From Eucalyptus grandis (taxonomy: Eukaryota; Streptophyta; Magnoliopsida; Myrtales; Myrtaceae), in the NCBI RefSeq assembly GCF_016545825.1, contig NC_052616.1, positions 1,116,001-1,180,000 on the forward strand: 64,000 nt of DNA, in the 5' to 3' direction. Every line of letters begins with the position of its first letter. Positions within the stretch are counted from its first letter, which is position 1. The notes beneath the pieces were generated by a model. The model was not told the origin of the DNA. It was given only the letters and a program-made list of their open reading frames with translations, and did not search any database. Positions 5,036 through 52,710 of this stretch are shown here, one piece after another. The position numbers were made by a program, and so were the translations under genes.

Positions 5036-5039
5036 AGCT

Positions 5040-5690: not shown

Positions 5691-5699
5691 TCTTGATTG

Positions 5700-6258: not shown

Positions 6259-6271
6259 TAGGAAGTACATT

Positions 6272-7435
6272 ATGAAGATGGCCTCAAAGTTCTTTGTCAG
6301 TGGTGAAAATTTATACAAGAGATCTTATGATTCAGTCTTGTTACGGTGTGTGGGTGCACCTGAAGCCACTCAAATTATGCAAGAAGTTCACGAAGGAGTG
6401 TGTGGCCCTCATATGAATGGGCACATGTTAGCCAAAAAGATCATGGTATTAGGCTATTATTGGCTCACACTAGAAGGTGATTGTATTCAGCATGTTCGAA
6501 GTTGTCATCGTTGCTAGGTTCATGGTGACAAAATAAATGTTCCTCCAACAGAGCTACACCAGTTTTCTGAGCCATGGCCCTTCTCAATGTGGGGGATTGA
6601 TGTGATCGGCCCGGTAAATCCTAAGGCTTCAAATGGACATCGTTTCATTTTGGTGGCAATAGATTATTTTTCCAAATGGATTGAAGCTATGTCATTTGCA
6701 AGTATCACTGCTCGCAATGTCACGAAGTTCATCAAACGTGACATAATTGCTCGCTATGGTGTCCCTGAAACGATTATCACTAACAACGGGACAAATTTGA
6801 ACAACAAGCTCGTTGATGAGTTGTTCAGCGAGTTCAAGCATTTGACTTCATCCCCTTATCGCCCTCAAATGAATGGGGCTGTTGAAGCAGCCAATAAGAA
6901 TATTAAGAAGATCTTGGCTAAGACAGCCGAGAAATATCGAGATTGGCATGACAGATTACCCTTCGCACTGATGGCGTATCGGACATCGATTCGTACTTCA
7001 ATCGGAGCAACTCCTTTTGCTCTGGTATACGGCATGGAGGCAGTTTTGCCTGTGGAAGTGGAGATTCCTTCCCTGAGAATATTATCCCAAGTGGAATTAT
7101 CTGAGGCAAAATGGTTGCAACAAAGACTTGAACAGTTAAACTTGATCGATGAGAAAAGATTGAAGGCTCTCTGCCATGGCCAAACATATCAACAGAGAGT
7201 AGCCAGATCTTTCAACCGAAAGGTGCGGCCGAGACATTTCAAGGTAAATGATATTGTTCTAAGGAAGTTGTTGCCAATTTTTCCAGATCCTAGGGGGAAG
7301 TTTGCTCCAAACTACAGTGGCCCATATGTGGTAAAGAAGGTACTTCATGGCGGTGCTTTGATCTTGGCAAAAATGGATGGTCGTGTGTTTTCCACTCCAG
7401 TTAATTCAGATGCTGTCAAGAAGTATTACCCATGA
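6272..7435 (+). pseudogene. Integrase of pol, catalytic aspartate lost
   Basis: The zinc-binding HHCC domain is at about 6388-6517 (HEGVCGPHMNGH followed by HVRSCHRC), after which a TAG stop at 6515-6517 interrupts the frame. The core starts with GIDVIGP (first D at 6599-6601). The second catalytic position, normally D in a DNG motif, reads N at 6782-6784. The glutamate is kept in AVEAANK at 6884-6886. A C-terminal GPY/F-type module (YSGPYVVKKV) lies near 7310-7345. The D-to-N change would abolish strand transfer even without the stop. Confidence 0.92.
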
Positions 7436-15228: not shown

Positions 15229-17310
15229 TTACTTTGGGTAAGCAAAAGGAATCGTGCCCTCAAGTTTATTTTTACCAAGATTGAAAATCAACAAAGAATC
15301 AATATTTCCAAGACATGAAGGAATTGTGCCATTCAGACTATTGATGAACAAATCAAGAATGACAAGGGATCTTGCTCCACAAATAGATTGAATTCCTCCG
15401 TGAAGGATGTTGTTGGAGATATTGTAATAAGTCGTTGATGGTGCTAGACTAGGGAGTTTTGTTTTGAGGAAGTTAGAACTAATGTCAAGATACTTCAACT
15501 TAGGCAATGGCAGATTGTTATAGTTGTTTCCAAAGCCAGTTAGAAAGTTGTGAAAAAGAGTCATACACCAACTTGGGTAGTGACACATTGATCTGGTTGT
15601 TCAGAAAACTAGTTAGAAAATTGTGAGAAAGACCCATAAACATCAAATTGAGCAATTACAAATCGATTTGGTTGTTTTCAAAGCCAGTTAAAAAATTGTG
15701 AGAAAGATTCATAAGCCTCAAGGTTTCTCTACTACCACTGAACATCCACATAGGAATAGTCCCTTCAATTTTATTGTATGAAAGAGATACCCCTCGTAAT
15801 CCGCTTAGGTATCCTAAAACTTTCGGAAGTCATGTAGGTTGCATGAATCTAAACTTAAATGGGAAAGTTTTGGAAGAGTGGCATTGATATCGGTTTTGGT
15901 AACAAATGATATGTTGTTGAAGTCCAAATATAACATCTTCAAGTTCTTGAGTTTGTGTAAATCCACGATGCCACTTAAATTATTGTGACTTAGTTGTAGA
16001 AATTCAAGATTCTTGAGTTCCCATATTGAGTTCGGAATTTCACCTTGCAAATTGTTGGATGAAAAGTCAAGCGCAACCAACCGCGTCAAGTTCCCAAATG
16101 GAGATGAAATTGGACCGCTTAGTTGACCATCTGTCATATGTAAAGAAGATCAGACTTTTCATTTGGTCACTAATTGAATCTCATTATTTATTTATATATT
16201 TCTTTAAGAAAAACCTTGCTAATTGAATATTACTTAAAAGGTCCAAAGTGGTGAGTTTTGCGAAGTTGACAAGCGAATGCCAAATATCACTTGTGAAATT
16301 ATTGAACAAGAGATCTAGATATGACGGCCAAGTGAGGTTAGCAAAGGAAGCAGGGATTTCACCCTGAAATTTACTGAATGATATATCCAGATAAACAAGC
16401 TGAGGAAGATTACCCAAGGAAGTGGGGAGTGAACCCGAGAAAGGACAATTTCCAATTGATAATTTATTCAAGAAAATAAGATTTCCAATTGAAATGGGTA
16501 TTTCCCCTAAAAAAATTCGTGCCCCAAAGAGACAGATTTCATATGATTACTCCACTATTTTTCTGGGATACGACCAGAAAGGTTGTAATTGAAACTGACG
16601 TCAAGGAATTCCGGGTTTGGAAATTGAAAGATGCTTACTGGAAATTCTCCATGCAATTCACAATCTTCAAGTTTCAGCGACTTTAAAGAAGAGAAGTTTA
16701 CAAGCACACGAGGGAATGGAGATGGCATCCTTATATAAGGTAGTTCAAGTTCTCTAAGCATAGTTAAGTTCTGCACCAAGTTGTCTACATTAGGCATCTC
16801 TAGACCCCATCCAAAAGACAAATCCAGAAAACTTAATCTAGAGAGCCGTGAGATTTCCCAGGGAACTTTTCCAAAACAAAACGGATTGGAGAGATTAAGG
16901 TATTGTAACATGGAAAGGTTGTTGAAACCGTATGTGATTGAGGAATAGTTGAAGTCATTCGAAGCAAGATTGAGCAAATCAAAATGAAGTAGGCGAAAGA
17001 GGTTGGTATCGGAAGTTATGATACCAAAGAGACAGCTATTGCTAAGGTTAAGGCCTATCACATGACAGGTGGCCTCGTCGCACTCTACGCCATTCCATGA
17101 GCAGCAATCTCCCTGTCCATCCACTGACTAGGATTCAACCTTCGGATTAGCACAATAAAAATCAGTTCTGTCGATTCTGAAACTTCACTTGAATTCCATC
17201 AAGGCTGAGGTCTCATCCGCATGACATAGGGAATTAGCGAAGGAAGTAGTAAACGCAGGGAGGAAGACGATCAAAGTACAGAACAGGTAGAATAAGGAGG
17301 GGGGTGCCAT
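15229..17310 (-). pseudogene. LRR receptor-like protein (Cf/RLP type) pseudogene
   Basis: The start codon is at 17308-17310. A signal peptide follows (MAPPSLFYLFCTLIVFLPAF...), then the CHADETSALMEFK cap typical of plant LRR receptor-like proteins, broken by an in-frame TGA and a later TAG before the GDCCSWNGVECD motif near 17090-17120. Extracellular LRRs of the LxxLxLxxNNLxGxIP type occupy 16555-17124, 16184-16471, 15814-16137 and 15229-15588 in shifting frames. The last piece reaches the C-terminal LRRs (SLLIFNLGKNKLEGTIP). No transmembrane segment or tail is found; the left end abuts the copia-like remnant. Intact relatives are membrane immune or developmental receptors. Confidence 0.88.
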
Positions 17311-31875: not shown

Positions 31876-31884
31876 AGTTGGGAG
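31876..31884 (+). repeat. Left 9-bp target site duplication of the Pack-MULE
   Basis: AGTTGGGAG directly precedes the left TIR and is repeated exactly at 48972-48980. A 9-bp duplication is characteristic of Mutator-superfamily insertion. Confidence 0.92.
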
Positions 31885-32657
31885 GAGAAAATATTCTGGT
31901 ATGTGCGCGCCCGTCATCTGCCGACCTGGTGCGGACTTACCAATGAAACGCCGGCATGTGTCCCAGCGAGGGACCCGCTGAAAAGCGAAGGCGCTGGTTT
32001 TTGTCGGCTCGGCTCGGCTCGGCTCCACGCGAAGAAAGGACGGTCGGCGTATTCCTCCCGCTCAAAATTTTTCTCTCTCTTCACTTGAATGGGCGCGGGT
32101 TCTCTCTCCTCGTAAAAGAAAAAAAGAACGCTCGAGCCTTTCACTTTCCTCCTCGCATCCCACCTCCTCCGCCTCCGTCTCCGGCTCCGCCTCCGTCTCT
32201 CGCCGCCCAAAAGCCTCGCGGTCATCTGCCTCCCGGCATCTCGGTCTTGTTCCCGAGCGGCACCGGGCTCCCGCCGACCAAGCTGCCCGGCCCGCTCGGT
32301 CGCAAGGGAGATCTTGGCGGACTTTGGCGGGGGTCGACGGCGGGGCGAAGAAGGAGAGCCTGCTGCATTTTCTCTCTTTTTTTCAACGAAGCGCGCTTTT
32401 CTTCCCGCTTCGCCTCTCTTTCCTCAAGCACTCCTCTCCTCTCTGTCCCGAGCCCTCTCACTCACCCCAAGCGCCCCCTCCTCTCTTTCTCGAGCCCTCT
32501 CACTCACCCTAAGCGCTTCCCTCCTCGCCTCTCCTCGTCGCCGTCATCGACTTTCCAGTAGTGGCTCCGAAATCGCCGGCTTTCGATCGGCCTCTCAAGC
32601 TTCTTTGAAGCAAAAGAGGTTTGCGAGGCTAGATATACTGCTGGCGGTGCTAAGTTT
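31885..32657 (+). repeat. Left terminal inverted repeat of the Pack-MULE (about 773 bp)
   Basis: It is nearly identical in reverse complement to 48180-48971. It is GC-rich and contains a GGCTC tandem run (about 32008-32026), a long pyrimidine-rich stretch, and two copies of a block reading GAGCCCTCTCACTCACCC about 42 bp apart (near 32450 and 32492). Homology ends at GTGCTAAGTTT. The glucosidase II beta start codon follows 119 bp later. It opens long frames, but these fit CT-rich low-complexity DNA better than protein. It may act as a promoter and leader. Confidence 0.9.
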
Positions 32658-32775
32658 TGGGGTTTCGCCGCGATGCCGTGAACTTCCAAGATCACGGTCG
32701 AGCACCGGCACCGGCACCTGCACATTGAAGAATTTACTTCTGGGTTCCAGCTCTTTTCAAACGCTTCCTCCGGAC

Positions 32776-35700
32776 ATGAATTCGCCGACCGTTTTCATCT
32801 CCGCCGTCGCATTGGTCCCGCTGTCCAACGGTTCTCTCCGCGTGTCGTCCTCGACTTCGCCGCCCAAAGACCCGTTTCTCGGGATAGCTCCTGAAGGTTC
32901 GAGCCCGTCGCTTTCTTATGGGTGCCTCGTTTGTAAAGTGTTTTTTATTGGACAGAGCTCGCTGTAGTGGGAGGGGTGGGGTGAGGGGTTTTGACTATTT
33001 GAGGCCGTGGTTGGGTGGTGATGACACCTGCGTGATACCCGGATGTGAAATATTACGCTTCATCGAACAGGATGAAGTGTAAGGATGGGTCGAAGAAATT
33101 CACCCCAGCCCGTGGTCAATGACGATTTCTGCATCGCCCGAGATGGGACAGATGAGCCGTCCTTTTTGAGCCATTTTTTTTAGCAATTAGTTTGCTGTTG
33201 TCCTTGAATTTATTGGTTGTTCTCACGTCTTGCATTGTGTTTAGATGGATGAGTTGATGCAACGGAAGGGAAATAAAGACAGAGATTATGAATAGGATAA
33301 ATAATGGAAATAGTACAATAAATATTTCTTTTTGGGCCATAGACCACCCTGGGGCAAAATTGGGAGGAGATGGAAGTAAATTCATGAATCACTGTCGCCC
33401 TTCTTTTCATTTTTGATGAGATGCATATGAAGAACTCCCAGTTTTCTTTCTTGCTGAACGAAGCGCATTTAATTGTTACCTTAAGCAATTTCACCAGATA
33501 TTACGGACTTGGCAGGTATATTATGAGGACTTAATATTTTCCTTGGTAATTGTCATGAATAATCGATTTTGCATCATAGATCAGCAAAACTGCGGATTGC
33601 TTTATTTGATATAAATGCTTTTGAAGAGCAAAGAAGTGTATTCAGTTTATATGGGATGGTCTGGCCAACTTCCATAAACTGGCATAGTTGAGCGATGCTC
33701 TCCATTGATATATTAGTAATGATGGTTCATCAAGAAGCTCACTGGGACTCATGTTAGTTCAGTTGTATTGTGGTTATCACAAACCACCGGTTTCTTTTTG
33801 TTAGGCTTGTACTGGTTTTAGATATTACTTATCCAAAAAGACTGTTACTAATCCTAGGCTTTATTTCTTCTTATAGAAAATAGTATGTGTGCAAACACCT
33901 AGTAGTGTCCATATCTGGACCTACTTTGATGTTTAGACTATTCTAAATGACACCATTACTCGTACCCGGCTTTGTTTCCTTCTTTAGAACATCTCATGTA
34001 TGTCTGCAGATTTCTTGTAGTGTCCACCACTAGAGCTACGTACTTTTCTAATTGTAACTTCACTTTCTCTGACTCGATAATGCAGGAACATCAGCATGCC
34101 CAAATGGAAAACTTTATTGTCGGAATGCAGGACATGTTCCTGTCATTATATTTTCTTCGAGAGTAAATGATGGCATTTGTGGTAAGTAGTCCATCGGAAC
34201 TTTTTCTCCATGGTCTTGGCCTTTCCAAGCGTTCGTTTTCCTGTGTTGATTGTGGACCTCATTCTCCCTTCTGATCATCTGTACATAACACATGCATGTA
34301 AGTTCATGTACCATCAAACAAGATCCTGCTGCATTTGAATTGCCCAACAAGGTTGCAATTCCTTCTTAGACATAAGAATATCAGATATGATATTATGAAT
34401 GGCCAGGGCCCAAAGTCCTCTTTGCAGATTTTAATTGCTTCAGTGTCAAGGATATCTCTAAACTTCACTGCAATGAGATGTTCCACGCTTTAGTGTCATG
34501 GGGCACTGATTAATCATAATTGTGCAACAACAGATTTATTTACCTGCTTTAGCAACTTCATGTCCTGGATTGTCTTTCTCACCAACAAACATCACTGTTA
34601 AAATATTACTTTACAGACTATTTAATGAACCCTAATACCATGAAGACAAGTAAACAAGGGTATATTTCAAGTGATGAACAGATTTGAGACTACTCTTTAG
34701 GAACTCTCCAACTTTTGAGGACAAGGACATTGATTGTGAGATATATGCATATGGGAAATGAATGGAAACTATTTTTTCGGGTTTAAATCTTAAGGATTGT
34801 TTCAAAAGCTAGACAAGAGTGGCTTCTTCAATTGAGAACAGTTTGCATGCTTGGTCTGTTTATCGGTTCAATCCAGTGAAAAGAAAGTGGTCAAAAAAAG
34901 GTGAGATGGAGAACTGGTTTAGTTCGGATTGATCTTTTCCTTAATGCTTGTCAATGAACAGTGTTTCTGAGAATACAAGAAAAATTGCAGGAAGGGGGAA
35001 AGGTTGGAGAGAAAACAAAAGGTGCATTTTTGAATGAAATCTACGTGCTTATCGTCATATGCAAGGATCTGCAGAGTGATCAATTGTTAGTAAAATGGAT
35101 GATGAATGTGTGGATTAAGTAACATCATAATATTGTAATAAGATACTAATTAATGCTTAGATTAATTTTCCCTTTTCATTGTTTAGGATTTTTGTCAATT
35201 GGACAATTACTAAATGCTAAGGTCCTATAAAAGATTTATATGCTGACATCATCCGACCTTAATAGGTTGACGGAATTACTAGATCGTTCGGTTCTTGTAA
35301 CACTAATTTTAGCATCCATTGGACAAAGGTTAACTAGCAGGTGGTCATTCTTTTTCTGCCTCCTCTTAATGTTTCCTCCTAACATATGTTCTTTGCCTGC
35401 TCCATGATATTCAGACTGCTGTGACGGGAGTGACGAATACAGTGATAAAGTGAAGTGCCTGAATACATGTCGGGAAACTGGAAAAGCAGCATGAGATGAG
35501 CTGAAGAAAAAAATTGCTGTGTACCAGGAGGGCGTTGCCATATGTAAACAGGAGGTGGAACAGGCTAAAGTAGCTCTTGCAAAAGACAAGGAAGAATTGT
35601 CAAAACTGAAAAGTGAGGAGAAAGTACTGAAAGTGCAGTTTGAACAGCTTAAAGGTTTGGTTTTTCCTAATTTGGTGGTATCTTGGCAAAATAACTTGAA

Positions 35701-36640
35701 TTTAGTTGTCATGATCTCATTAAACCTGAGTTTGCCCTTAAAACGTAGTTGCTAGCTACTGCACATATATATCATCTTTGTTCATACTGCATCCAGTGAT
35801 AGCAGCATATTATGGTCTATGGAATTGGAAAAACTCACACTCTGATGATAATGAACTCATCATAGTATAGCTTCTGTATAGATATTTTACCGTACTAACT
35901 GTTTGGTAGTTTTACCAAACAACGAAGCATTTTCTGAATGAGTGTGGATGTTGTGACTATTAGATATTGATGTGCCAGATGTATCCCAGCCTTGTAGGTA
36001 AATGGATGGAAGATTTGGGAAGCATTTGGTTTACCTCACTAAAGAAATTACTTCATCCCTCTAAACGAGTGTCTAGTAGTATTATGATGTTTGGAAGATT
36101 AGCTATATTTGGGAAAAATAGTGAAAATGGACGGGATAGGTGGAAAGTCGGGAGAAGTTTGAAATTTCTGTGAGAGAGAAATAGAGGAAAATTTGAATTT
36201 TTAGATGCTCTCTCAAATTCTGGCCCTTGGTGCTCTCAAAATAGCCTTAGTGTCATGGTCACTATTTGCTATCTCTCGTTGTTGTACATGTGCTTAGACT
36301 ACCCTTCTTCCATGCTTTGGCACTTTATGATGCTTAGTTTAAGATTTCTTTTTACATGCGTTCGTTTTTGTGTTACTATCAATTGTTTTGTTGCTTTTTC
36401 ATCTCTAAATATAGAGCGCAAAGAACAAATAGAGAAAGCAGAGGAGAAAGAACGAATGAGAAAAGAAAAAGGAGGGAAAAAAGAGAAGCTGAGGGGAAAG
36501 CTGGCAAAGAGAAAGCAGTTTCAGCAGGGTTGGGTGTTGGAGATCTTGGATCACGTAAGGATGGGAGGAGGCAGGCTAGCAGAGAGGAACAAGAGAAAAT
36601 CGAGGCTGAGATGAGAAAGAATGCCTACCAATTGGCCTAT
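32776..36640 (+). pseudogene. Glucosidase II beta subunit (PRKCSH-like) 5' fragment
   Basis: Exon 1 (32776-32896) encodes a signal-like start and SPPKDPFLGIAPE, the hallmark of the family N-terminus. Exon 2 (about 33028-33140) encodes KYYASSNRMKCKDGSKKF then, after a 1-nt frameshift, NDDFCIARDGTDE; the LDLa-type CDCPDG cysteines are lost. Exon 3 (34086-34181) encodes [16 protein letters not shown]. Exon 4 (35415-35654) has DGSDEY, a TGA at 35492-35494 and a coiled coil. Exon 5 (from 36415) encodes EQIEKAEEKERMRKEK and is frameshifted. The C-terminal mannose-6-phosphate-receptor-like domain is missing. The intact protein retains glucosidase II in the ER for N-glycan trimming. It lies inside the Pack-MULE, just after its left TIR. 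Confidence 0.9.
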
Positions 36641-36787
36641 GCTAAAGCAGAGGAGGCATCTAGGTTACTGTGGGTGGAGCAAACAAGAAAGGGAAGAGAT
36701 TCTAAGATGTTTTGCTGTTGCTTTTCTTGAATCTCTTGGGCCTACCAAAACCCGCAGTGAAAGACTGCAATTCCATTCCGCCAAAAA

Positions 36788-38269
36788 CATACTGGTGGGA
36801 CTGGATTTGTATCCGAGGACATAGCTTTGAAGTGTCGTGGAAATATTTTCAAGGGAAGAGGTGTGATTGCTTCTGCTTTTAAGGTTTGTGACCTGTGGAT
36901 ATGGGTATCATCTTAGTGGTATCTTCGTCTTGCTATGCAAGAAAAACTGATCTCCAAAAAATAATTATGACAAATAAAAAAGGAAAATCTACATTGCATT
37001 ATTAAGTATCATTTCAGCTTTGCGCTGTAAGTGTGAGTCTAGTTATTAGTATTTTAGCTTCAATAATTCTCCATATTGCGATATATTTCATTTTTTCTAT
37101 CGGTTCATTTATATCTTCCATTCTAATTGTTTTGGCCGAATTTTAATCTGTAGCTCCCTCCTCATACAATTCATATTCGACCGTCGATGATCAAGGTTGA
37201 AAAGGACCCGAAGCTTTCAAATATCAGGACCGTTGATGCACTTGAAATAGTACAAACAAGGTACAACCAACATATTTTGCCGCAGGCTATCATTGTTTTA
37301 ATTAATTCTCTTGAGGTTCTTATGGTACCTCGACCCCTAGTAATGTGATCACAAAGTGTTATCTGTGGGTTTGTTGCTGGCTATGCTATTGATTTGTTGA
37401 TCATTGTGTTAAGATTTTCCTTTGGAGTTAGCTGGTTAAAGACCCTTACATAAACAGACTGAAAAGTTAGCGGCTTTCTTGTTCTTTCAGCAGTTTAATT
37501 TGAACTTGGGACATGTTTTTCTTGTGAATTACTAAATCCCATTGCTTTTTGTTTGAAGCTTTTTCTGCCATCAAATTTTACCTTTTGGAAGAACTGATTA
37601 GACCTTGGTCCTCATTGATGCAAAAGAATAAACCAAAGCCTGCATATCTTTCAAAGATTTTGATTGCACTTTTAAGCTATGGCGGGGTCCCTAATGAATT
37701 TCTTTTGGACATGGTGGAGAATGCTCTGGGAGATGCAAATAGTGTCTTCTCTAGTAAACGAGCAGCTCTAAGAGGTAGTATTCTTCTGAACATTTGGACC
37801 ATTGAAATAATGTCTATTCTTAAAACAGTCCAAAAAGAGATTTTTCTCCAATTTTTTTTTTCTATACTTGGATGTGCTTCTTTTTTTTTTTTTTTTTTTG
37901 ATTCAAAATATGCATAAGTAAAAAAATGCATCTCTATTCATCTTTGCTGCTTTTACTTCCTCTGGGTGCGTATTTCCTTTAATTGCTATTTGACGTGTAA
38001 ACATTTTCCCTTGTGTTTTCCTTTTGTTCTTTTACCGTATGAACAGTTTTGGTGAATCATGGTGAGAAGGATGGTTTGACTGCAGCCAGAATGATCTTAA
38101 CTGGGATTCCTCTGGACGAAACATACCTACAGAATCGTCTGTCCATCCCGATGAACGATGAAAAGAAGAGTTTGAAAGGAGGAAGGATTCATATTCCAGA
38201 TTCTTACTATCTAATGGGGACAGCCGATCCAACAGGAATTCTTAAAAGTGATGAAGTTTGTATTATCCT
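36788..38269 (+). pseudogene. RNA-dependent RNA polymerase fragment (RDR3/4/5-like), truncated before the catalytic motif
   Basis: Four exons follow the glucosidase fragment on the same strand. 36788-36883 encodes HTGGTGFVSEDIALKC, where the family has a DGTG motif. 37153-37260 encodes PHTIHIRPSMIKVEKDPKLS. 37627-37774 encodes KPAYLSKILIALLSYGGVPNEF and FSSKRAALR. 38047-38269 encodes VLVNHGEKDGLTAARMIL and YYLMGTADPTGILKSDEVCIIL. The catalytic DbDGD region normally follows a few exons later and is not found. The first exon's aspartate reads glycine. Intact RDRs make double-stranded RNA for silencing; the RDR3/4/5 clade is poorly understood. The clade call is from recalled motif wording. A bridging segment at 36500-36715 is not assigned. 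Confidence 0.88.
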
Positions 38270-39585
38270 GTATGTACTCGTAATCTCATCTTTCTGTGCT
38301 TGATTTATCATTTAGCACGAGTCTGCTAAAGAAAACTCAAGAAAAACAGTCATTTTTGTAATTTTAATTTTAGAGTGCATCCCTTGGTTTTTAGTGGCTT
38401 GGTATGGTTATGGAATAATTTCTAACCATGCCGTAGGGTAAAATTCAAAATTTAGGTCTGCATATGATTTGGCTTATTAAGATTCAAGTATGTGCCACTT
38501 GTTGACCTAAGCATATGCCTACCCATATAAACCGTTGACTCAGCTCCTACCTTTCACAGTTTCAGAGCCAAACTTGGTAAAGCCTCTACTTGTTTCTTGT
38601 TTCCTCGTATTGCCAGTTAAGGAAACTATCAAATTACACAAAGAAATTTCATCTTTTTATGATTTGTTTGCAGAAATGTTTCTGGTTGTGATTTATGCAG
38701 GTCGTTTTGGTACATGCACCAATAAAGGATAATAACCAAAATAAAGATTACAGCATCAGTGGACTTTATGGATTTTGTTTGAATGGCTTTCATCTGTGGC
38801 ACCTGCAATACGCTCACAGAATCTGATTTCTCTGTAAACACAGAGGAAACTTAGTAATTAACTGCTCTCTACGAGACCAAGCTAAATCTGGCAAAGCATG
38901 CGACTACTATATAAAACAAATACAACTTTGCTATTAGGAACTGTGCAGTCCCTGGAATCAGCATATAGAGCAAGGCAGAAGTGCATCACGGACAAGACCC
39001 ATCAGTATCCTTAACATGGACATTGCAGAGTCTGACCCTTCCCTGTTCCAGAGGCTCTTCCACTAGGTGAAAAGAGATAGTAAGTTCCTGATGGCCAAAG
39101 TTAATATTTGCTCTATATAGTAGTCCCAGTTCTTTGCCAGATCTTACTCGGTTGTTACGGGGTAAGAAGCTGATTGCTTATTTTCCTCCTTGCTCTACAA
39201 TGCAACCCCAAACGTAATGCAAAACTTCCATATTAGGCTCATTTGACCTGCGATTTGGCTTGGATATGGTCATTGGTGTGCAAGAGTCGGGATATCTGCC
39301 ATTTGACCATTTGGTCCGCAAGTTTTGCATCGGTTTCAGTTAATGGTGCTTAAGAAATGGATATTTTCCCTTCCGTGTGCTGTACCCATCTGAACTGATT
39401 GTTTTTTTATTAGTTGTGACAATAAATGCGCGGAAGAGACAGGATTTCGGCAAGATATATCTTCTTTCTTATGGTGTTATTTCTTTGTATTAGGAGTATG
39501 GAGTCACAAGATAAATTATGTTGAAGCACTAATGCATCCTCTAAAACTTGCTATCAAGTTGCTGCAGCATTAAATGGTGAACTTT

Positions 39586-39777
39586 TTGCAGATGGCGGGG
39601 TAGAGATCAGAAGAATGACCGTAGCAGGTGATGAGACGGATCACAGGTCTGGGAAGGTGTTTGAGTGGAGAATTGAAAGCCTTTTCCCGACTGGGCTCTT
39701 CTCTCTTTTGAGCTGCCCAGACCCATTGATCACACAGTTCACCGGCAACTTCAGTGCAGATGGGATTTTCCAGTGAT
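39586..39777 (+). pseudogene. Unassigned exon-like frame inside the Pack-MULE
   Basis: After TTTTTGCAG (a good acceptor) the frame reads GGVEIRRMTVAGDETDHRSG, then WRIESLFPTGLFSLLSCPDP and ITQFTGNFSADGIFQ, and ends with TGA at 39775-39777. The composition looks like real protein, with balanced residues and no low complexity. I do not recognise the family. It may be an exon of a further captured gene. The overlapping minus-strand frame 39570-39815 is a weaker alternative. Confidence 0.4.
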
Positions 39778-40691
39778 TCATCGAGAAGTGGATGGACAAT
39801 CGCTAAATCTGGCAACTAAGGCTTCATAGGAGTATTGACTTCATAAAGGGAAAATGTCATAGCGTTTCCGGGCACTTGCTAAGGCTCTTTAGTTATGCTT
39901 TTGTTAAGTAGACTTTTCAAAAGTTCTTCGTCTCGTACGTTAGTCCTCATCCATTCTACTAATGGGATATATTTGCCCTTTAAAGTATTGGATACTCTTG
40001 TTTTCCTATAGAGAATATGTTGCTCTGCACATAAAATCAGATTATGCAAGCAAGTTTATCTGGTTGTGATTTTTCACTTGTTTTCTCATTACCTATGCTG
40101 AGGTGCCTTAAGCCAGATGAAGAGTGTAAGATGTTCAGACCGTTGGGCTTTGTTTCAAATGGGTTTCGTCTATAATATCGGCACTTCCAAGTCCTAGATA
40201 TGTCCAAGGGTGTTATCTGGCTTTTTTGGTTTCTTGGCCTGATCTTACCTAGAATTGGTTCATATCACCATGGCAAGATAGAAAGGATCGAGTAAACCTT
40301 CATAAAGTCAGTATGCGCTTTGGGCACCTTGGATTGGCACATACTATCCACAAGTGTCCTTAGAAGGTTGTTAATGGATAAGTCTTAACTTAAAAAGGTG
40401 GTGTTTTCCTGTGTTATGGAATTTAGGGCCCATCAAACAATCTATGGAATTCTTTCATGGGACTGGAAGCATTAGGGTGCTTTGTAGGTGGTGGCATAAA
40501 TTATTTTCTTGTAGACTTTGACGAGTGGCGGTGAGCAATGAAACCGCAAAGATAGGGACGATTAGCCAAATGAGGACACATCTTGTGTAAAGCTTTTGTT
40601 ATAGAAAATAATATTATAGTATTAGTCGATGTACATTTGTCTTACTCAAATGTTGCAGGTACTAGATTAGCATAAAGATAAGTTAGTGCAG

Positions 40692-40866
40692 GCATTTAAC
40701 CAGAGTGAGGTTGCATTTAACCAGAGTGAGGTTGCCGAGTGGCTCTATCTGATACATCACCCTTAGATCAAATCAACTGGTGCATTTACCTTTCTTTTGC
40801 TGAGTGGCTCTATCTGATACATCACCCTTAGATCAAATCAACTGGTGCATTTACCTTTCTTTTCTT
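40692..40866 (+). repeat. Two adjacent tandem duplications (21 bp x 2 and 65 bp x 2)
   Basis: GCATTTAACCAGAGTGAGGTT is present at 40692-40712 and 40713-40733. A 65-bp unit starting GAGTGGCTCTATCTGATACA occupies 40737-40801 and 40802-40866. Copies appear identical, so the duplications are recent. Confidence 0.9.
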
Positions 40867-42047
40867 CTCTTGCCTTGTTCTATCTCCCCAAGCTTTTGGA
40901 AGGTTCTTTTGTGTGAGACTAAAAGCTTTTATCATATATTATATCGTCAAAACATCACAAATTTTCTATGTCGATAAGGGTTCATTTTCTGGTTGTAGTG
41001 TGATGAATTTTTTGCATAATGAGCAATACTAGCAACCATGAAAAGCCATTGTTAAAACTCTACCAAGCTTTCAAGAGGACAAAGGGGAAATGCACATATA
41101 GTTTACCTGATTTGTGCATCATTTCTTATAGATTCATATTAATCGAAATCAGGACTCTGAGATTGGACGTGTAGAGTTTTATCTCTTCAAGCACAAAAAC
41201 ATACCTGGTGAAATTGAGTTCTTGCCCACATTATTTTGTGAAATTGAAGCAGTGCATTTTGTATGACACTGGTATTCAGTAGTTGAGGGCCAAAAAGAAC
41301 TCGAACACAGCATTTCGATGTTTGAAAAACAAAGTTTTCGAGATATCTTTCAACAATACAAAGAGTGAGAATTAAGAACCACCATATTCTTTATAACAAG
41401 AATTAAAAATTCAAGATTGTTCTGATTTCCAAAACTAACTAAAAGTTAACTAATGTCGATTTTGTTTGTATATCTACACACTCAAAAGCTGCAGAAATTC
41501 TTTAGATCCTCTTCCTTGCCATACCAGCTTGGTATTTATCTTCAAAATGTGAGGATACAGATCCTTGGAGGAGTTCCTAACCATCCCCTCGGTGACTCTA
41601 GTAGCAAGTGATATATCTGCACAAACATTCGATTATTTATATGCATGCGCTGTTTCAAATGCCATTTACATATGCACCAATATGTCTTTAGTTGTTCAAA
41701 TTGAATAGGATTGGAGAAACTAAAACCTTGGGGAGACTTCTTCTCATCAGATAGCAGCTGCTGCAATGGATATGGGGCTCCTCCTGCAAAATTAGAGGAT
41801 AAAAACAGAGAATACGTTCAGCACTTGAAAAGGAACAACAGTAAAGCATTTGAACTAAACCTGGTAAGTAATCTTTATACACAGCAGGTCTACATTGACG
41901 AACCTGCTCAAATCACAACATCTTTCAACCTCAATAGAAGAAAGATGAAATGTTGTCAACCAAGTTTTACAGTTTTCGACTCTTCCTCCAGCTTTACCAT
42001 TAAAATTCCAGCCAATGAGAGAATAACCACTGAAAAACATTCAGATT

Positions 42048-42990
42048 GTGCAGTTTGATATCACTGTCAATGCTCATATCAGCTTGTCTGTCATCAGCAA
42101 GTCCAGCCCTGTCTCCTACATCTAAGTTGATTTCGCCAGAAGTACTATGTCGATGTCTGTCCTGCTTCTCTGGAACAAGTAAACTAACAGACTTAAGGAT
42201 GTCTACAATACAGACATAAACATAAAACAATGAACTTGCATCATTACCTCTAACACGACAGCCCAAAACCCGATCAACCTGAAAAGCAGAAAAGGGTCAA
42301 ATGAATTAAAGATGGATTCTAAGATCAATCACCAGAATCAAACAACAAAGTTGGTCATAAGTAGATTTACCTGCTGAAATTCACTCTGGCGGTGCCGCTT
42401 ATGCACACTGGTGTATCATTCACATGACGGTCTCTTTTCTTTGGCTTTACTGCCCTGGTGGGCTTTTCAACTCTCCAGAAAGCTTCTGCACCACAAAATC
42501 AATTTTAAATATATCATCGAGCCTCAATAAAAGTATCTTATATATGTCTATGCGTAATATGTCGGTAATGAAAAGGCCAATGTAAAAGTATCTACCTTTT
42601 TGTTTATTTGGACCATTTGAACCTTCTTTTGCTCCATTTTCTTCCATGGCAGACCATGAACCCTTGTTTACAAACGTTCTCTTTCTTAATTGTGAATTAC
42701 CTATTTCAGGTATTGCAGCTTTCTTCTTCGATCCATGTCTCTTAAAAGTAGCAATAATTTGCTTGCCATCATCATTCCTGCTCTTAGAAGCAGCAATAGT
42801 TTGCTTGCCATCATCATTCCTGCTCTTAGAAGTAGCAATAATTTGCTTTCCATTGTCAGTCATGCGTTTCTTCTGAATGTCATTTTTTCTGCACAAGCTT
42901 TCTCTTCTTAGCTCTCTCTTTACTAGCACCAATTCCAAGAGCAGCTTGACCATCTGGACTAATGAATCAATCAGAACATTGAGAATTTTT
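42048..42990 (-). pseudogene. CHD3-type (PICKLE-related, CHR4-like) chromatin remodeller fragment
   Basis: Read on the minus strand. A lysine-rich exon covers about 42990-42600 (DGQAALGIGASKERAKKRK, then after a frameshift KKRMTDNGKQIIATSKS and RHGSKKKAAI). Further pieces are at about 42478-42372 (EKPTRAVKPKKRDRHVND), 42283-42252 (VDRVLGCRV) and 42200-42048 (VPEKQDRHRHSTSGEINLD). The VDRVLGCRV phrase and the basic spacer match what I recall of the region before the chromodomains in plant CHR4-like proteins. PHD, chromo and helicase domains are absent. It lies between the PUS3 fragment and the MULE interior on the same strand. Identification is moderately secure. Confidence 0.6.
42751..42870 (-). 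repeat. 42-bp coding minisatellite, about 3 copies
   Basis: The unit starting GCAATA begins at 42751, 42793 and 42835, so the period is 42 bp, or 14 codons. On the minus strand it encodes repeats of NDDGKQ(I/T)IA(T/A)SKSR. The third copy is diverged. It preserves the reading frame of the CHD3-like fragment. Confidence 0.85.
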
Positions 42991-43340
42991 CTCTGATGCA
43001 TTTTGCATTCCTTTTTTCAGAGCCTTCAATTTTTAATAGCATGTTTCTTGCTCATGCCAATTAGTGTTAGCAAAGCATTTGAACATTACATCTTTATTTT
43101 CCACATGCCAAACAACTGACTCACTAAAAAAGGATTAGTTTGTGTCACCATATGGTTATGCAGATCGCAATGTTATCTCATATAAAGCCTTTTCTCCATA
43201 ATGTCTTGTCCAATATTGGTAGCCCCGTGCATTTTGTTGCATTAACTAATAGATATAAAACAAACTATCTCTCACCCATTTCCTACGTTCAACTTATGGT
43301 AACCAAGACAGAGAATGGCGAAGTATCTTATATTATGTAC

Positions 43341-46300
43341 ATCAGGAGATTCAAGACCTTGGCCAACCATAAACATCACAGCAACCATGCAATGAACTTG
43401 GTGCCACAAAAATGCACTGCCCTTAATTTTGAAACACCACAGTTCATTACTTTCCAACCTGCATAAAAGGAAGTTCATTAAAATCAGAAAAGACACTGCA
43501 AACTAGATTGGTCTTATTAATATAATAACTTGTACATGAGAGAAACTGGCCAAAATGAAAAGGCCCTTTTTTTGCCGTTTGATTTCTCTTTCATCATCAT
43601 ACCAACAAAAAATATAGATGCATCTTTGCATCTTTTCTTAACTTATAAAGATCTCAAAAAAACATCTACCAGAACCAACCTCTTATCACAAGAAGAGAGT
43701 TCAAAGGATGTTATATGACGCTTGTAGTCGTGGACATTAAATGCATCCATCTTACAAAAATTTCTGAAATCATGATCCCCACAAACTTTTGGCCTGCACT
43801 CTCCATTGCCTAGCATAAAAACAGAGAAAGGACTTCTATCAAATGAAATGAAATAGTCATAATATCAAATTTTTAGGTTCAAAATCAGCATAAAGTAGTT
43901 TATGAAATGAAATAGTCATAAACTATAAAATGAAGAGTTACCCTAATATCCAAATTATTTCTCCAAAAGAAATATTTGTACTCCCTGCTCATACAGCTAA
44001 ACCTGCAAGATATTGAGGAAGACAAAATCATGTGAAAAGGCAAACCCCACCTACGTTTCCGCAATCATTAACATTATAAAATCAACAAATTTGAGGCATC
44101 TCTAATGCATTTCATCAACAGAATCCCATCATATCGAATCAAAATAAAGTACACCATGCCACCATGAGAAGGAAAACAACCTTGCACTAAAATTAATTGG
44201 AACAGGACACCAGCCAGTTACTCGGATATCTTTGGGTAAGACTCGATTCAACACTCTCACATAATCAATTTCCGCGTCTAAGACTGACATATAAATGAAA
44301 GTAAGCATCATATTGAACATGATAATTTTTCATCATAAATAATTCGTTGCAGCAAATCAAATAAAGTACGAATCTGTAATGACTGCATAATCCCAACATA
44401 TATGCACTTTCCTGCAGAATACCCTGCTAACTTCGAAATGCTAACCACTTAGTCTGAAATAAGCCACTTTTGATTAGGAAAGCAGTGTGATGTGTACACG
44501 TATGTATAGGAATATGTATATTTAATGGATGCTTTATTACCGTACCAGCAGTTTATTTCCAGCTTGGACATCAGCCTTGCACAAAATACACCGATTTTTA
44601 ACAATTAATCTTTTCTCTTTAATGGGTCTGTAGCAATTGAATTGAGTCACAATTTTCCAGTGAAGTTCAAACTTCATTCAAAAGCAATTTAAAGACTCAT
44701 AGCAATAAAATAGAGCTCAAAACAATTAAAGATCAGTCACTTAAACAACATACCATCTCTATCTATAGAAAGTCCCCAATTGTTTGCATCATCTGTGTTC
44801 TTAGGTCGCAGGTTTGATCGTAGAAACAGGGAAATGACCTGCATCAGAAAGCAAACCATAGCCTACTCATGATGCACCTAAGAAAAGAAGCAAACAGGAG
44901 ATAATAGAACAACAACATTAATAATAAAAGAAAGAGCCTACTGCAAACATAATTATCCTAGGTAAAATGACAATTGATACTAGACACTTGTCCACGTCAT
45001 AAAACCTTCTTGTATCTTGTGGTGGTATCTCTATCAACATTTCAATCATCTTGCAAAGAGACTCCCAGCTATCAGAACTCTCGCTCTTTGGTACTTTCTC
45101 ATCTCCAATTCATATCATTGCTTCTCTAACAAAATTCACTTCAGAACTTGCACTCCAATTACAATATTCTATGATCTAATTAACACCCAATCTCAAATTC
45201 CTTGAGAAAATCAAGCTTCACATATTGCTCCTAACCGATTCTTATACGGTAAGATTATAATCAACAAAAGCTCTCGTGAAAGGAACATCATCATGAATAT
45301 TCACAGTAATCACATCTATCACGAGGATGGAAATATATGGTTGTTATAAGGAAAAACTCTGATAATTGCCCCTTGTGCCCATACTTCCACAATTGCATTT
45401 TAGTAGTTAAAAGTACTAAGTAGTACACATGCAACAGTTAACCATCTTTTTCCAGAAGCCCTTAAACATGTTTCTGAGTAGCCTTGTCATCTGTTTTTCC
45501 AAGTTTAAGAAATAATCAAAAATTACAAAATACAACTGAGATTGTGCTCGTCTACTAAATATAAGTTGACACGCGTTTTTGCAAGAAAATGCTCAACATT
45601 TAATACAGGTTGAAACAAAGACCCACATTCTCTCCGCAAGGAAATGGTGATTGCACGGAATAGTGAGCCAAAGATAAAACCCAATCTAGCGTCTGTGAAC
45701 AAAATAACAATCTACCGATCCATCAAGAAACTTAGAAGCGGAGTAGCAGTTTTTGAACTTACTTGTCCAAAAGATGAAACTCCTTTGTCTGTTCTGCCAC
45801 ATCTTGAGTACTGTGACTTTTTCTTGTCACCAACTAAAAGCTTAGTCTTCTCAAGAGCTTTAAAATTTCAGACTGCATGACACCAAAATCAGTATGATGG
45901 GATTCGGATCGAAATGAATTAGGTGTCTGCCAAGAATGTCAAAAATGCCAAAATAGAACATCTGCTGATTTTAAATCGATAGCATCCATGATTTAAACAT
46001 TCGCATTGCACAATATTAAAGAACTCTTCCATGTATCTTTGATAATAAGCAGAAACTCAGTGACTTTGCTTGCATGGTACAAACTGATCTACTAGTGTAC
46101 CGAAAGATAGTGTCCTTACTGAAAACATAAATTTAAATCTTATGAAGAAGTAGAACCCTGTTTTATAGCACATATTTTCCGTTAGGCCCAATGCTGAAAT
46201 GAATGAAGATTTTGGGGAGAAGATGGAATGTAGGACCGGACCTCGACAGTTGGATCCAATTGTGCTTCAGAGGCAAAACCATAAAACCTGTAAAATAAAG

Positions 46301-48008
46301 CAAAAGTGAAGCGATTTCATTGTGCCAAAGAAAAGCTAGAGTACATTCAATGGCCTAAGGCACAACACATTCAGGATTTCATATGTCTAGGAAATTAGTC
46401 AGACTTGCCATGTGGTGTAACAGAAAATTAGTCACATATTTCACGAATCACATCCACTACACATTTACTTGTGACAGATTCTGCAACTTAAGAGATTTCT
46501 GCAGTGACACCCTAGTTTTAGAACATGAATGCTTCCATAGCAGAAATATCCTCAAATTATTAATAACAGCTAAACTTTCACAATTTCTAGAGTATTTTAT
46601 ATTCCATGCTGCCTCTTAAGAACAGACAAAATCAAGACAAAGGGAAAGATAATAGACTATACCAGATTAAAATCGTTTTATGATGCAACAGTTGCATTGT
46701 ATGACAAACAGTACAATGGCTACAATCTGTACCTTGTCCAAAATACATCAATCTTAGAGCAACATATCGCCTTGGATGGTGTTCGAGAATTCCTGTTTTG
46801 AAATCTGCAGCAGGAGGTATCACAACATTCACTAAAATATGGCTGCACATTGAAAGAACTTTAGCCGAACAGCATGCTCATCTCTATGGAAGCAGGGTTG
46901 TAATAAATTACTAACTCAAACCCTATAAAACTTAGTATTAAAAACTATTCGCACAACAATATTGATGCTTTGATTATGTCTAGTTTTAGCGCTTAGGGTC
47001 GCTTGTTTTTCTTTAGACTGTTTGGAGTCACAACTAACACAGCCTGCTAAGCAACTCCACGAAACTTCACCACTATAGTATCCTGTAACCTCTCAAAATT
47101 TGCAAGAAGGCCACTTAATTATTGTTTGACTTTTGAACTTAAACCGTTCCTCCCGTTCCTGAAACAGGCTGACTCCCAAGTCACTGAAAAACCCTCGACT
47201 GGAACTTGAAGAGCAATAAACATACAAGATCTCAGTGGTTCAGATTAAACATGCAATTGGAGCTCAAAGAGTTTGACCAGTAGCACCTTTTTTCTTCCTA
47301 GTCTTCTTGTCCAGCTTCATTGATTTGCCATTCCCATCGACCACTCCACTTCCCTCTACGACACAACCAATCTTGTCTTCCATCTGCACAAAATGAAGCA
47401 ATAAGCTCAAGTACATCGCATTCAGCACGTAACATTGAATTTCGCTTATCCCCTATATGCATGGCCAATAACAAAGAAGCGCCAACCAAAAGATGCATGC
47501 ATTCACTCAAACCACCGACAAACAATGCATGCCCAACTCAAATGCGCGCTCGACCCAACACCGAAACCGGCTTCGGGCTGCTACAAAGATATCAAGATTC
47601 ATTCGAGAAGTCGTAAAGACAGTGAAATCCTCTCGAAAAGTGAAAAGGGAGAATCGAAATGGCTCACCTTTTGACAGCAACATCCAGAGAGTCGAGAAGA
47701 AAGGTCGGCGTTCTGCTTCTCCAGCTCCTGAAATGCGATGGGGGCCAAGTCGCGAAACCGACAGAGTTAGCACGCGGCAGCTCGTACAGGCAATCGAAAC
47801 TCCCACACACACGTGCGGGTACGAACCGCTCGATCGAGTTACAGCTTCAAGGAAATCGCAATCGAATTTTAAATAGAAAAGAAAGGAGGAAGAAGCGTTT
47901 CCAATGGCGCGCGCTAGAGAGAGAGAGGAGTACGTTGATTGTCGTCTGGAGATAATGGATCTGGGAGCGAAGGGCGTCGACTGAATCTACATCGGGCGAA
48001 GTAGACAT
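43341..48008 (-). pseudogene. PUS3: tRNA pseudouridine synthase 3 (PUS3/DEG1-like) fragment
   Basis: The start ATG is at 48008-48006, just inside the right TIR. Exons include a piece ending at 47669 (ELEKQNADLSSRLSGCCCQK), 46804-46733 (HHPRRYVALRLMYFGQ), 46287-46242 (FYGFASEAQLDPTVE), 45872-45763 (SQYSRCGRTDKGVSSFGQ, with the catalytic Asp of truA-like enzymes), 44838-44754 (VISLFLRSNLRP), 44277-44181 (RVLNRVLPKDIRVTGWCPVP), 44002-43942 (SREYKYFFW), 43809-43680 (CGDHDFRNFCKMD) and 43458-43341 (IKGSAFLWHQVHCMVAV). Single-base losses at the 46733/46287 junction and near 45860 shift the frame, and the C-terminal exons are missing. The intact enzyme modifies tRNA positions 38/39. It lies within the Pack-MULE. 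Confidence 0.93.
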
Positions 48009-48179
48009 TGCCTCTCTCCCGCTTCGCCTCGCTGCGCTCGACGTTCTGCTCCGCGCTCTTACTCCGGCGAGACAGAGGCAATAGAAAAGAAAAAAAAAGG
48101 CAAAGGAGAAAGAGAGGTCTCACGGTACCCATACGCCTCTCTCTCCTCCACCACAATATCCCTCGTGGCCGTCACGGCA

Positions 48180-48971
48180 AACTTAGCACCGCCAGCAGTA
48201 TATCTAGCCTCGCAAACCTCTTTTGCTTCAAAGAAGCTCGAGAGGCCAGTCGAAAGCCGGCGATTTCTGGAGCCGCGGCTGGAAAGTCGATGACGGCAAC
48301 GAGGAGAGAGGCGAGGAGGGAAGCGCTTAGGGTGAGTGAGAGGGCTCGAGAAAGAGAGGAGGGGGGCGCTTGGGGTGAGTGAGAGGGCTCGGGACAGAGA
48401 GGAGAGGAGTGCTTGAGGAAGAGAGAGGCAGAAGCGGGAAGAAAAAGCGCGCTTCGTTGAAAAAAAAAAGAGAGAAAATGCAGCAGGCTCTCCTTCTTCG
48501 CCCCGCCGTCGACCCCGCCAAAGTCCGCCAAGATCTCCCTTGCGACCGAGCGGGCCAGCGCTTGGTCAGCGGCGGGGAGCCTGGTGCCGCTCGGGAACGA
48601 GACCGAGATGCCAGAGGCAGATGACCAGCGAAGCTTTTGGGCAGGCAGAGACGGAGGCAGAGCTGGAGACGGAGGCGGAGGAGGTGGGATGCGCGGAGGA
48701 GGAAAGTGAAAGGCTCTGAGCGTTCTTTTTTCTTTTACGAGGAGAGAGAACCCGCGCCCTTTCAAGTGAAGAGAGAGAAAAATTTTGAGCGGGAGGAATA
48801 CGCTGACCGTCCTTTCTTCTGCGTGGAGCCGAGCCGAGCCGAGCCGACCAAAAACCAGCGCCTTCGCTTTTTCAGCGGGTCCCGCTCGGGGACACGTGCC
48901 GACGTTTCATTGGTAAGTCCGCACCAGGTCAGCAGATGACGTGGCGCGCACGTACCACTGAATATTTTCTC
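48180..48971 (-). repeat. Right terminal inverted repeat of the Pack-MULE (about 792 bp)
   Basis: This is the reverse complement of 31885-32657 with small indels. It ends GAATATTTTCTC at 48971, followed by the target duplication. The GAGCC tandem run at about 48828-48846 mirrors GGCTC on the left. Its inner edge lies 171 bp upstream of the PUS3 fragment's start codon on the minus strand, so the same TIR sequence precedes a start codon at both ends. Confidence 0.9.
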
Positions 48972-48980
48972 AGTTGGGAG
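48972..48980 (+). repeat. Right 9-bp target site duplication of the Pack-MULE
   Basis: AGTTGGGAG, identical to 31876-31884. The following bases continue the split solo LTR. Confidence 0.92.
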
Positions 48981-51600: not shown

Positions 51601-51784
51601 TTTTTCCTTTTTTAGATTATTATCACTTCAAATGTTAATTTCGGCGTGAGAATATTTTATTTACGTTCTTCACTCCTATTGTATAACAGCACTAGCATTT
51701 TAGCCCGTGCAATGCCGTGATACTTGAAATAACATCTTTAAGAAGTCATGAATATTTATATATTTTAAGCATGGAAGTTTGTAA

Positions 51785-52020
51785 AGTATTGTCTAATTGT
51801 AATGGCATTGTGGTACTCTACGCCATCCCATGAGCAGCAATTTCCATGTGACCCTGATAAACCTTCGCATAAACACATTGAAATGTGTTTTGTAGGTTTT
51901 GAAACTTGGTTGAATTCCATCAAGGCAAAGCTCTCATTCGGATGGCATGGTGGCTTAGCAAGTGAAGTATGAATCAAAATGAGAAGGACGAATGAGTAAC
52001 AAGTGCATAGAGTAAAGACA
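51785..52020 (-). pseudogene. LRR receptor-like protein N-terminal fragment
   Basis: On the minus strand the reading contains a signal-peptide-like CYSFVLLILIHTSLA, then PPCHPNESFALMEFNQ and, in the same frame, GNCCSWDGVEYH, the cap of plant LRR receptor-like proteins. No LRR follows. It resembles the cap of the pseudogene at 15229-17310 (NSLCHADETSALMEF, GDCCSWNGVECD). It directly abuts a broken copy of the membrane-protein gene 3' end at about 52020. Confidence 0.75.
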
Positions 52021-52710
52021 CCATGATCTCTATTTTTGTTACTAGAGTCGGTTAATATGGGAAAAGGTCGAGCTTGATTGTAATTTATGTTTAGAGACAA
52101 TTTGGAAAAAAAGCCGTTTTTTATCACCTTGGCATTAAATATTCTGCTACTATTGTAATTGTAGGATCTTGTTGAATATTGTTTTAGCATAAAAAGAGAG
52201 AAGTTCTTTCGGCAATCTAAAATGGGAGGGGCTAAAAGTTTGGTTTTTGTGTGGAATAGCGTAATGTAGGTAGTGAAGGCGAAGTTAAAGCAAGAGGCAA
52301 TTCAAAATGGAGTTGTTTATCTATTAATCATACCGAATTTGTAATACAATATATGTATTGAGTATACCTCTTATTGTCCTAGCTAAAATTGTTATGTAAC
52401 TAGACGAGAGGAAAAGAACAACTAAGTTTAGAGTCCTTTCATTGCAGAATATGTGGGGAGTAAAGCTGCAAGTTGATTTCTAATTACAGAGTGGGCTACC
52501 AATTGAGTTAGTACTTCACATACATAAATAGTTGATATTTCTAATTATGGCGGAATTCTATTATTTTTTAAGTCTTGGCAGCGTGGATATGCAACTAATA
52601 CTCTCTGAAACTCAAATCATTTTGTGATTGTTGATTTTATGGTATCTCTAGTTTTTTTAGGCTGCATTGTTCATGTCATATGAATATGCTATTTTTCTTT
52701 CCATACAATC
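52020..52710 (+). pseudogene. Duplicated 3' end and flank of the membrane-protein gene
   Basis: The sequence is a diverged copy of 57845-58500 in the same orientation. Its first 65 bases match the end of the coding region, with residues YGKR recognisable but a stop just before. The following 600 bp match the 3' flank (GGATCTTGTTGAATATTG, GTGATTGTTGATTTTATGGTATCTCT). Upstream homology ends where the RLP fragment begins. Confidence 0.75.

Follow-up and report, generated by a model that had tools for sequence, protein, structure and literature searches.

A 17-kb element of Eucalyptus grandis that very probably belongs to a family of giant Pack-MULE-type transposons

Rice Pack-MULEs, Mutator-like elements (MULEs) that carry host gene fragments, show a bias toward the 5' ends of genes. 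Here we describe an element at positions 31885-48971 (C5:1147885-1164971) of a 64,000-nucleotide stretch of the Eucalyptus grandis genome (C5:1116001-1180000, hereafter the window; assembly of 616.5 Mb in 36 contigs). It is very probably a giant non-autonomous MULE of the Pack-MULE type, from an E. grandis family with terminal inverted repeats (TIRs) of ~0.7-0.9 kb ending in GAGAAAATATTCAGTGGT. This reading is based on the TIRs, target site duplications (TSDs) of 9 bp that differ between copies, intron-bearing copies of two donor loci, amplified cargo, and MULE-transposase matches between the same termini. In the accessible parts of the literature, rice and tomato Pack-MULEs are likewise non-autonomous and have TIRs, TSDs of 9-11 bp and host gene pieces, sometimes from several loci, and about a third of those in rice are multicopy (PMC6431247, PMC3310237, PMC8277862). 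The rice set (Jiang 2004, cited in PMC6431247) consists mostly of elements of 1-2 kb with none above 7 kb; according to the same review, this ceiling may reflect a falling transposition efficiency above ~6 kb of cargo. In tomato, elements larger than 2 kb are rare (PMC3310237). In contrast to the rice elements, the Eucalyptus copies measure 13.6-17.1 kb, hold gene blocks of 4-5 kb, have amplified a composite cargo as a unit and have swapped modules. With 17,087 bp, the window element lies far outside the usual, though not defining, Pack-MULE size of up to 7 kb (PMC6431247). The first-pass annotation, made from the sequence alone, had already called its size and number of captured genes large for a Pack-MULE.

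Some further plant elements are similar in single respects. KI-MULEs and VANDALs carry ULP-like genes, and the FARE2 foldback elements of Arabidopsis reach ~16.7 kb. FARE2 resembles the Eucalyptus element in size and in its long inverted repeats, a likeness by description only and thus a lead. KI-MULEs and VANDALs, mentioned in the accessible text of PMC13317346 and PMC8277862, are also MULEs with a captured host-derived gene, whereas the Eucalyptus copies hold several unrelated pieces that vary between copies, and no evident conserved coding cargo. Maize ZmMULEdt-3, of a type with an extra internal TIR, is a plant MULE of large span (~10.7 kb), likened here by table coordinates only (PMC3310237 table). 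A literature search over titles and abstract openings, with subscription papers outside its reach, returned no description of a giant Eucalyptus MULE family. Pack-MULEs and capture from several loci are already known; the size and the family behaviour are unmatched in the accessible parts of the cited literature.

The element and its relatives

The inverted repeats, placed at 31885-32657 and 48180-48971 in the first reading, align as TIRs of 773 and 793 bp with 92.7% identity (Table 1); the paired inverted blocks of the window cover 31912-32657 and 48179-48941. At the left edge, ...AACAGTTGGGAG is followed by GAGAAAATATTC, and at the right edge GAATATTTTCTC is followed by AGTTGGGAG. The perfect 9-bp flanking duplication that had been noted was found again. 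The element thus has TIRs at both ends and a TSD within the 9-11 bp of the Mutator-like superfamily.

When the best 40 of 236 candidates were scored, the left TIR had at least 64 matches in the genome, far more than chance would give. This and the other genome DNA searches (best 40 of 85 and of 69 candidates scored) provide lower bounds on copy number. A search for siblings by TIR, as had been suggested, uncovered a family. Two siblings, C7_6.1 (C7:6.11 Mb, 16.9 kb) and C11_5.6 (C11:5.62 Mb, 17.0 kb), align with nearly the whole length of the window element at 93-97% identity and have perfect 9-bp TSDs of their own. Among the seven copies with both terminal motifs present and flanks read, five have perfect and mutually different 9-bp TSDs: the window element, C7_6.1 (CTTGACGGG), C11_5.6 (CTTTTGATG), C2_8.7 (CATTTACAC) and C9_39 (CACCCAGTC). 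The composite units at these five sites span 14.1-17.1 kb, and the seven copies read from terminus to terminus 13.6-17.1 kb. The comparison of element ends covers 19 of 24 ends, those of C8_38, C3_62, C1_45 and C4_1.39 being judged from other alignments. In two siblings the inverted repeats, usually 0.7-0.9 kb long, are stretched, namely to 3.1 kb (97.6% identical) in C9_41 (L013/L014, C9:41.43 Mb) and to 3.7 kb (94.0% identical) in C3_68.8 (L021-L023, C3:68.85 Mb). Since the element is one member of an amplified family, its cargo was mostly captured in ancestors, elsewhere than at this locus.

Table 1. Features of the window element and pairs of family termini that enclose a transposase match
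Feature	Position	Strand	Evidence or occurrence
Left TSD copy, AGTTGGGAG (9 bp)	31876-31884		flank reading
Left TIR, 773 bp, terminus GAGAAAATATTC	31885-32657	+	inverted-repeat listing, genome matches, TIR alignment
Captured 5' part of glucosidase II beta gene	32665-36514	+	colinear with C10:22.03 Mb (L029), 93.4%
466-bp stretch between glucosidase and RDR pieces	36515-36980		common to C7_6.1, C11_5.6, C9_41, C8_38
RDR fragment, two recognisable exons (~37627-37773, ~38073-38270)	36981-38381	+	PF05183
Module	38487-40446		also at C8:62.30 Mb (L036) and C7:49.02 Mb (L034)
Dispersed module with CHD3-like exon (~42558-42785, ~42880-43005)	40437-42999	-	many genomic copies, some in transposase-bearing pairs
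Captured PUS3 gene	43022-48071	-	colinear with C6:37.71 Mb (L043), 95.9%
Subterminal element sequence, right TIR to PUS3	48072-48178	-	present also in PUS3-less siblings
Right TIR, 793 bp, terminus GAATATTTTCTC	48179-48971	-	inverted-repeat listing, genome matches, TIR alignment
Right TSD copy	48972-48980		flank reading
Transposase-bearing pairs, 20.1-26.8 kb	C2:21.12-21.14, C2:30.72-30.75, C2:40.56-40.59, C5:34.87-34.89, C7:20.02-20.04, C11:46.08-46.10 Mb

Captured gene pieces

Next to the left TIR lies the glucosidase II beta piece, which holds ~111 bp before the apparent ATG and then the first exons and introns. It is colinear over 3.85 kb with its donor, L029, where the reading frame at the capture border continues and where the 9 kb read contain no TIR match. 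Two exons of L029 match PF12999, one with 45.2 bits (above the cut-off) and one with 29.3 bits (below it); the one open reading frame (ORF) of the window piece that was scanned against Pfam gave no PF12999 match. The naming of this cargo, as first proposed, therefore rests on the donor locus. Loci similar to L029 are found at C10 22.08 and 22.17 Mb.

The PUS3 piece begins ~63 bp ahead of the apparent ATG and takes in seven tested exons; it is colinear over 5.05 kb with its donor, L043, again without a TIR match in the stretch read (9-9.5 kb for the two donors). The capture does not include the donor's last C-terminal PUS3 exons, which were named by eye at L043 884-1575. In the window, a PUS3 ORF matches PF01416 (1.8e-12), and a second exon falls just under the cut-off (1.6e-4); further pseudouridine-synthase and TruA matches agree with this assignment, which had likewise been made at first sight. 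Both captures face the nearest TIR with their 5' ends. Parental genes were thus found for these two pieces, and the earlier remark that introns were kept holds for both, while for the piece of an RNA-dependent RNA polymerase (RDR) it is only presumed. Three of the seven tested PUS3 exons of the window copy carry frame-shifting gaps. The broken exons differ among copies; in C9_41 and C3_62, all exons present have an open frame (exon E7 has no entry for C10_2.9 and C3_62, nor E5-E7 for C9_41). The frame-shifted exons argue against a PUS3 protein from the window copy, whose captured pieces are probably not functional proteins.

For the RDR piece, PF05183 matches two window ORFs, both above the cut-off (4.2e-6 and 6.9e-10). 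The next RDR exon (profile positions 377-450) is missing from the window copy and kept in several siblings, with no internal stop in seven of ten scored copies. A genome survey with PF05183 (best 75 of 96 candidates scored) found no RDR donor: as far as known, the exon layout of the element occurs at element or module copies, the surroundings of five such places being unread (C11:41.96, C3:2.25, C6:36.90, C11:12.47 and C2:28.99 Mb), and the survey also lists RDR loci of another exon layout. The gene that served as donor may have disappeared or diverged, or it may stand among the candidates that were not scored. The RDR cargo itself, as first described, is therefore confirmed by the profile, and no donor for it came out of the survey. 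One candidate donor, at C11:13.32 Mb, was rejected because it is itself a mosaic: it combines a GT61 frame with a kinesin exon and has degenerate TIR matches on both sides. This region (C11:13.3175-13.336 Mb; L042, L030 and L041) is a degenerate sibling ~13.8 kb long, where the RDR piece directly adjoins a GT61-type open frame of 303 amino acids (PF04577), with the kinesin exon (PF00225) close by.

Between the glucosidase and RDR pieces, C4_1.39 has, at the position of the 466-bp stretch, ~140 bp of extra glucosidase, 266 bp of other sequence and ~280 bp of extra RDR. The module at 38487-40446 follows the RDR piece. Its copy in L036 lies ~0.6 kb from an open frame with a CBF/NF-Y histone fold (L036 780-1553, PF00808).

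The fourth piece had been called a CHD3 remodeller. A resemblance to CHD3 is presumed from a PHD-finger tail (IPLGKWQCPKC in P0005, similar in L032), and Pfam and PDB searches of this piece gave no match of weight. A protein search of the genome with the CHD3-like exon (38 of 38 candidates scored) yielded 42 matches distributed over 21 places. Those whose nature is known are copies of the element or of the dispersed module; no separate CHD gene was recognised among the 21, the surroundings of many being unread. Several of these places, e.g. C5:62.19 and C6:32.88 Mb, have no demonstrated TIR pair. Of the four host genes originally claimed, glucosidase II beta, RDR and PUS3 are therefore solid and CHD3 is unconfirmed. 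PDB searches of two cargo ORFs were uninformative.

An RDR piece lies next to a CHD3-like piece at C7:20.03 and C5:34.88 Mb, and in the NCBI protein P0128 ('probable RNA-dependent RNA polymerase 5') an RDR piece with the motif GGDFDGD is fused to a CHD3-like piece. Because adjacent RDR and CHD3-like matches occupy one 148-amino-acid frame at C7:20031467-20031856, the comparison suggests that P0128 derives from the transposase-bearing pair at C7:20.02-20.04 Mb. NCBI protein models located on the family or its module are P0001 to P0004, P0006 and P0128. Annotation is affected accordingly: TFIIB-2 isoform X2 (P0004) and RDR5 (P0128) contain pieces of the family or the dispersed module, and their names may mislead.

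Transposase-bearing pairs of termini

At two mismatches or fewer, the terminus GAGAAAATATTCAGTGGTNNGTG has 275 matches in the genome (134 forward, 141 reverse); the reversed-pattern control gave 0 and 1. Pairing was done on 100 of the 275 termini plus the left end of the window element, a pair being neighbouring facing ends 0.5-50 kb apart. These 101 ends form 29 facing pairs with a median span of 16.9 kb (range 0.9-48.8 kb; the longest, with 48.8, 42.4 and 32.0 kb, may span more than one unit). In 2000 random placements, for which the length of chromosome 5 was assumed, the mean was 0.20 pairs and the maximum 3.

Six of the 29 pairs enclose a match to the MULE transposase domain PF10551 in a genome profile search with the best 150 of 767 candidates scored; 0.13 would be expected with the scored matches evenly spread, a figure that ignores transposon clustering. 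Placed by hand, the domain is 5-6 kb away from one of the ends in five of the six pairs and points inward; in the C2:40.56 pair its distance to the left end is ~7 kb, and it points to that end. The sole pair read (L047, on C11) has FAR1 and MULE domains in one open frame of 494 amino acids and a SWIM domain in another frame. Relatives of this protein in the homologue list come from E. globulus (91%), Corymbia (87%) and Rhodamnia (76%). The search for an autonomous partner of the MURA type, also proposed earlier, has thus led to six same-termini pairs enclosing PF10551, one of them read and frame-broken. The window element itself contains none of the best 150 of 767 PF10551 matches, and no transposase was recognised among its listed ORFs. 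With no transposase among the scored matches and host gene fragments that have donor copies elsewhere, it has the features of a Pack-MULE. The original classification as a Mutator-superfamily element of the Pack-MULE type with several captured gene pieces is borne out by TIRs, TSD and donors.

In its FAR1, MULE and SWIM domains, the L047 transposase resembles the Jittery group, with SWIM out of frame and one pair read. For the dicot/monocot sub-group of Jittery, a table in PMC6446971 gives TIRs of 39-292 bp and a TSD of 8 bp or none stated; MULE TIRs in this survey, as far as its accessible text and table go, measure 14-500 bp and up to 640 bp, respectively. The Eucalyptus family differs in its TIRs of 0.7-0.9 kb (3.1 and 3.7 kb in two siblings), its 9-bp TSDs and its pairs of 20-27 kb with host pieces. 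We would not file it as a Jittery member; the domain set agrees, the TIR and TSD lengths do not.

Modules of the window element are present in five of the six transposase-bearing pairs. Three contain the RDR and glucosidase pieces (C2:40.56, C5:34.87 and C7:20.02), two others the module with the CHD3-like exon (C2:21.1 and C2:30.7), and the C11 pair has no window-element module among the matches listed. Large size and host-gene cargo are therefore a trait of the family, since transposase-bearing pairs of 20-27 kb carry modules too.

Order of capture, mechanism and alternatives

What borders on the same TIR inner edge varies between copies: it is glucosidase in some, the subterminal segment and then PUS3 or other sequence in others, and in still others a third, gene-like stretch. 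The modules were acquired stepwise and reshuffled among copies. With gaps left out, the glucosidase piece of the window element agrees with its donor at 94.8 and 96.0% in its two halves, and the PUS3 piece with its own donor at 97.9 and 96.6%. For internal modules, identity is 97.0-99.8% against C7_6.1 and 94.1-98.5% against C11_5.6. In the glucosidase trees, the donors (three in tandem in M1a, two in M1b) are separated at 100/100 from a single clade of element copies. The trees and the module table include fetched copies only, with C4_1.39 and C2_40 read in part. The path from window copy to donor is 0.067 (M1a) and 0.045 (M1b) for glucosidase, and 0.023 (M7a) and ~0.038 (M7b, summed by hand) for PUS3. 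Read side to side, C2_8.7, C9_39, C3_68.2 and C3_68.8 contain glucosidase and RDR pieces without a PUS3 match, and the same is true of the parts read of C4_1.39 and C2_40. More divergent siblings, too, include some that have glucosidase pieces and showed no match to PUS3. Based on the shorter donor paths and these PUS3-less copies, the glucosidase and RDR captures are probably older and PUS3 younger. Several rounds of capture, one of the two routes first proposed, are thus supported; the other, a fusion of nested MULEs, is left as a rival for the 38.5-43.0-kb module.

We propose that the window element is or was moved in trans by the FAR1-type MULE transposase of the same-termini pairs. Cargo would have come in by template switching during repair or replication, from the TIR's inner edge to the 5' part of a gene. 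This would have happened repeatedly, with glucosidase II beta and RDR earlier and PUS3 last, and modules would later have been swapped between copies by recombination. At the left capture junction, a few bases are common to element and donor. Short of proof, they are compatible with the gap-filling and fork-stalling models, as outlined in the accessible text of PMC8277862.

Several observations weigh against this picture. C9_41 and C10_16.9 have both termini and flanks without a matching TSD, and C3_68.2, C3_68.8, C2_40 and C11_13, each with an end degenerate or unread, stand outside the TSD count. The transposase stretch of L047 is frame-broken, so its competence is doubtful, and the clustering of transposons bears on the expected number of enclosed PF10551 matches. 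As to the order of capture, the gap in distance between M1b and M7b is modest, and in M7a the PUS3 donor is placed among the element copies, beside C10_2.9 (90/90), a placement that may reflect a second PUS3 capture or a conversion.

The most serious rival holds that a glucosidase/RDR element and an element with the 38.5-43.0-kb module were joined by insertion, with loss of the internal ends. We regard this as possible but somewhat unlikely. The 40437-42999 module does exist as a dispersed repeat, also within the transposase-bearing pairs at C2:21.1 and C2:30.7; at 7 of 24 module loci a PF10551 match lies up to 20 kb upstream on the same strand (by hand), and the adjacency of RDR and CHD3-like pieces, including their fusion in P0128, would fit as well. 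Yet no stretch of at least 40 nt inside the window element was listed as an inverted repeat of the TIRs, and several module-bearing relatives have the same termini, for which exchange within the family explains the sharing equally well. At C2:2.04 Mb (L033), two ORFs that looked like transposase by eye fell into no Pfam family; PF10551 does match there. A segmental duplication, or a gene cluster flanked by inverted repeats by chance, would account for long, intron-bearing and ordered cargo, but the glucosidase and PUS3 donors are on different chromosomes and near-complete copies sit at unlinked sites with different 9-bp TSDs, leaving it virtually no probability. Hardly more credible is capture by another class of transposon (Helitron, CACTA, hAT or foldback): Helitrons and CACTAs take up gene fragments too, according to the consulted parts of PMC6431247 and PMC8903248, but the long TIRs, the 9-bp TSDs and the MULE-transposase matches between the same termini speak against them here. 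Both explanations are rejected on the TSD, TIR and transposase evidence.

A different question is whether the cargo yields a product, either a chimeric RDR/CHD3-like protein or small interfering RNAs against RDR that would shield the family from silencing. P0128, the 148-amino-acid frame inside a transposase-bearing pair and the largely stop-free 377-450 exon speak for it; the loss of this exon from the window copy and the frame-shifted PUS3 exons speak against it, and we consider such a function quite improbable. Equally to be read as a conjecture, and an unlikely one, is a self-sustaining exchange of gene fragments, in which giant transposase-bearing MULEs and their non-autonomous kin would time and again pick up the 5' ends of host genes at the TIR's inner edge and trade whole modules, with the transposase-bearing copies keeping the RDR/CHD3-like chimera to evade or steer small-RNA silencing.

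Returning to the Pack-MULE-type family as the preferred reading, the existence of units of 14.1-17.1 kb with perfect TSDs and of transposase-bearing pairs of 20-27 kb makes the size limit of Pack-MULEs testable in a named genome. With donors, partial forms (C4_1.39, C3_68.8 and C2_8.7) and full forms side by side, the order of capture and the junctions can be read stepwise.

Some minor observations concern single siblings and the surroundings of the element. For C2_40, the idea that it abuts another element end was rejected, as its left flank has a chance AATATTTTCTC only and the facing left terminus is at C2:40564711. The sibling at C8:38.414-38.424 Mb (L028) carries pieces of a homeodomain gene, with exons for the HD-ZIP N-terminal region (PF04618) and the leucine zipper (PF02183). 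In the window, open frames at 489-7435 look by eye like a Ty3/gypsy-type retrotransposon polyprotein, and those at 16555-17127 and 51765-52301, flanking the element on each side, like pieces of leucine-rich repeat (LRR) receptor-like proteins.

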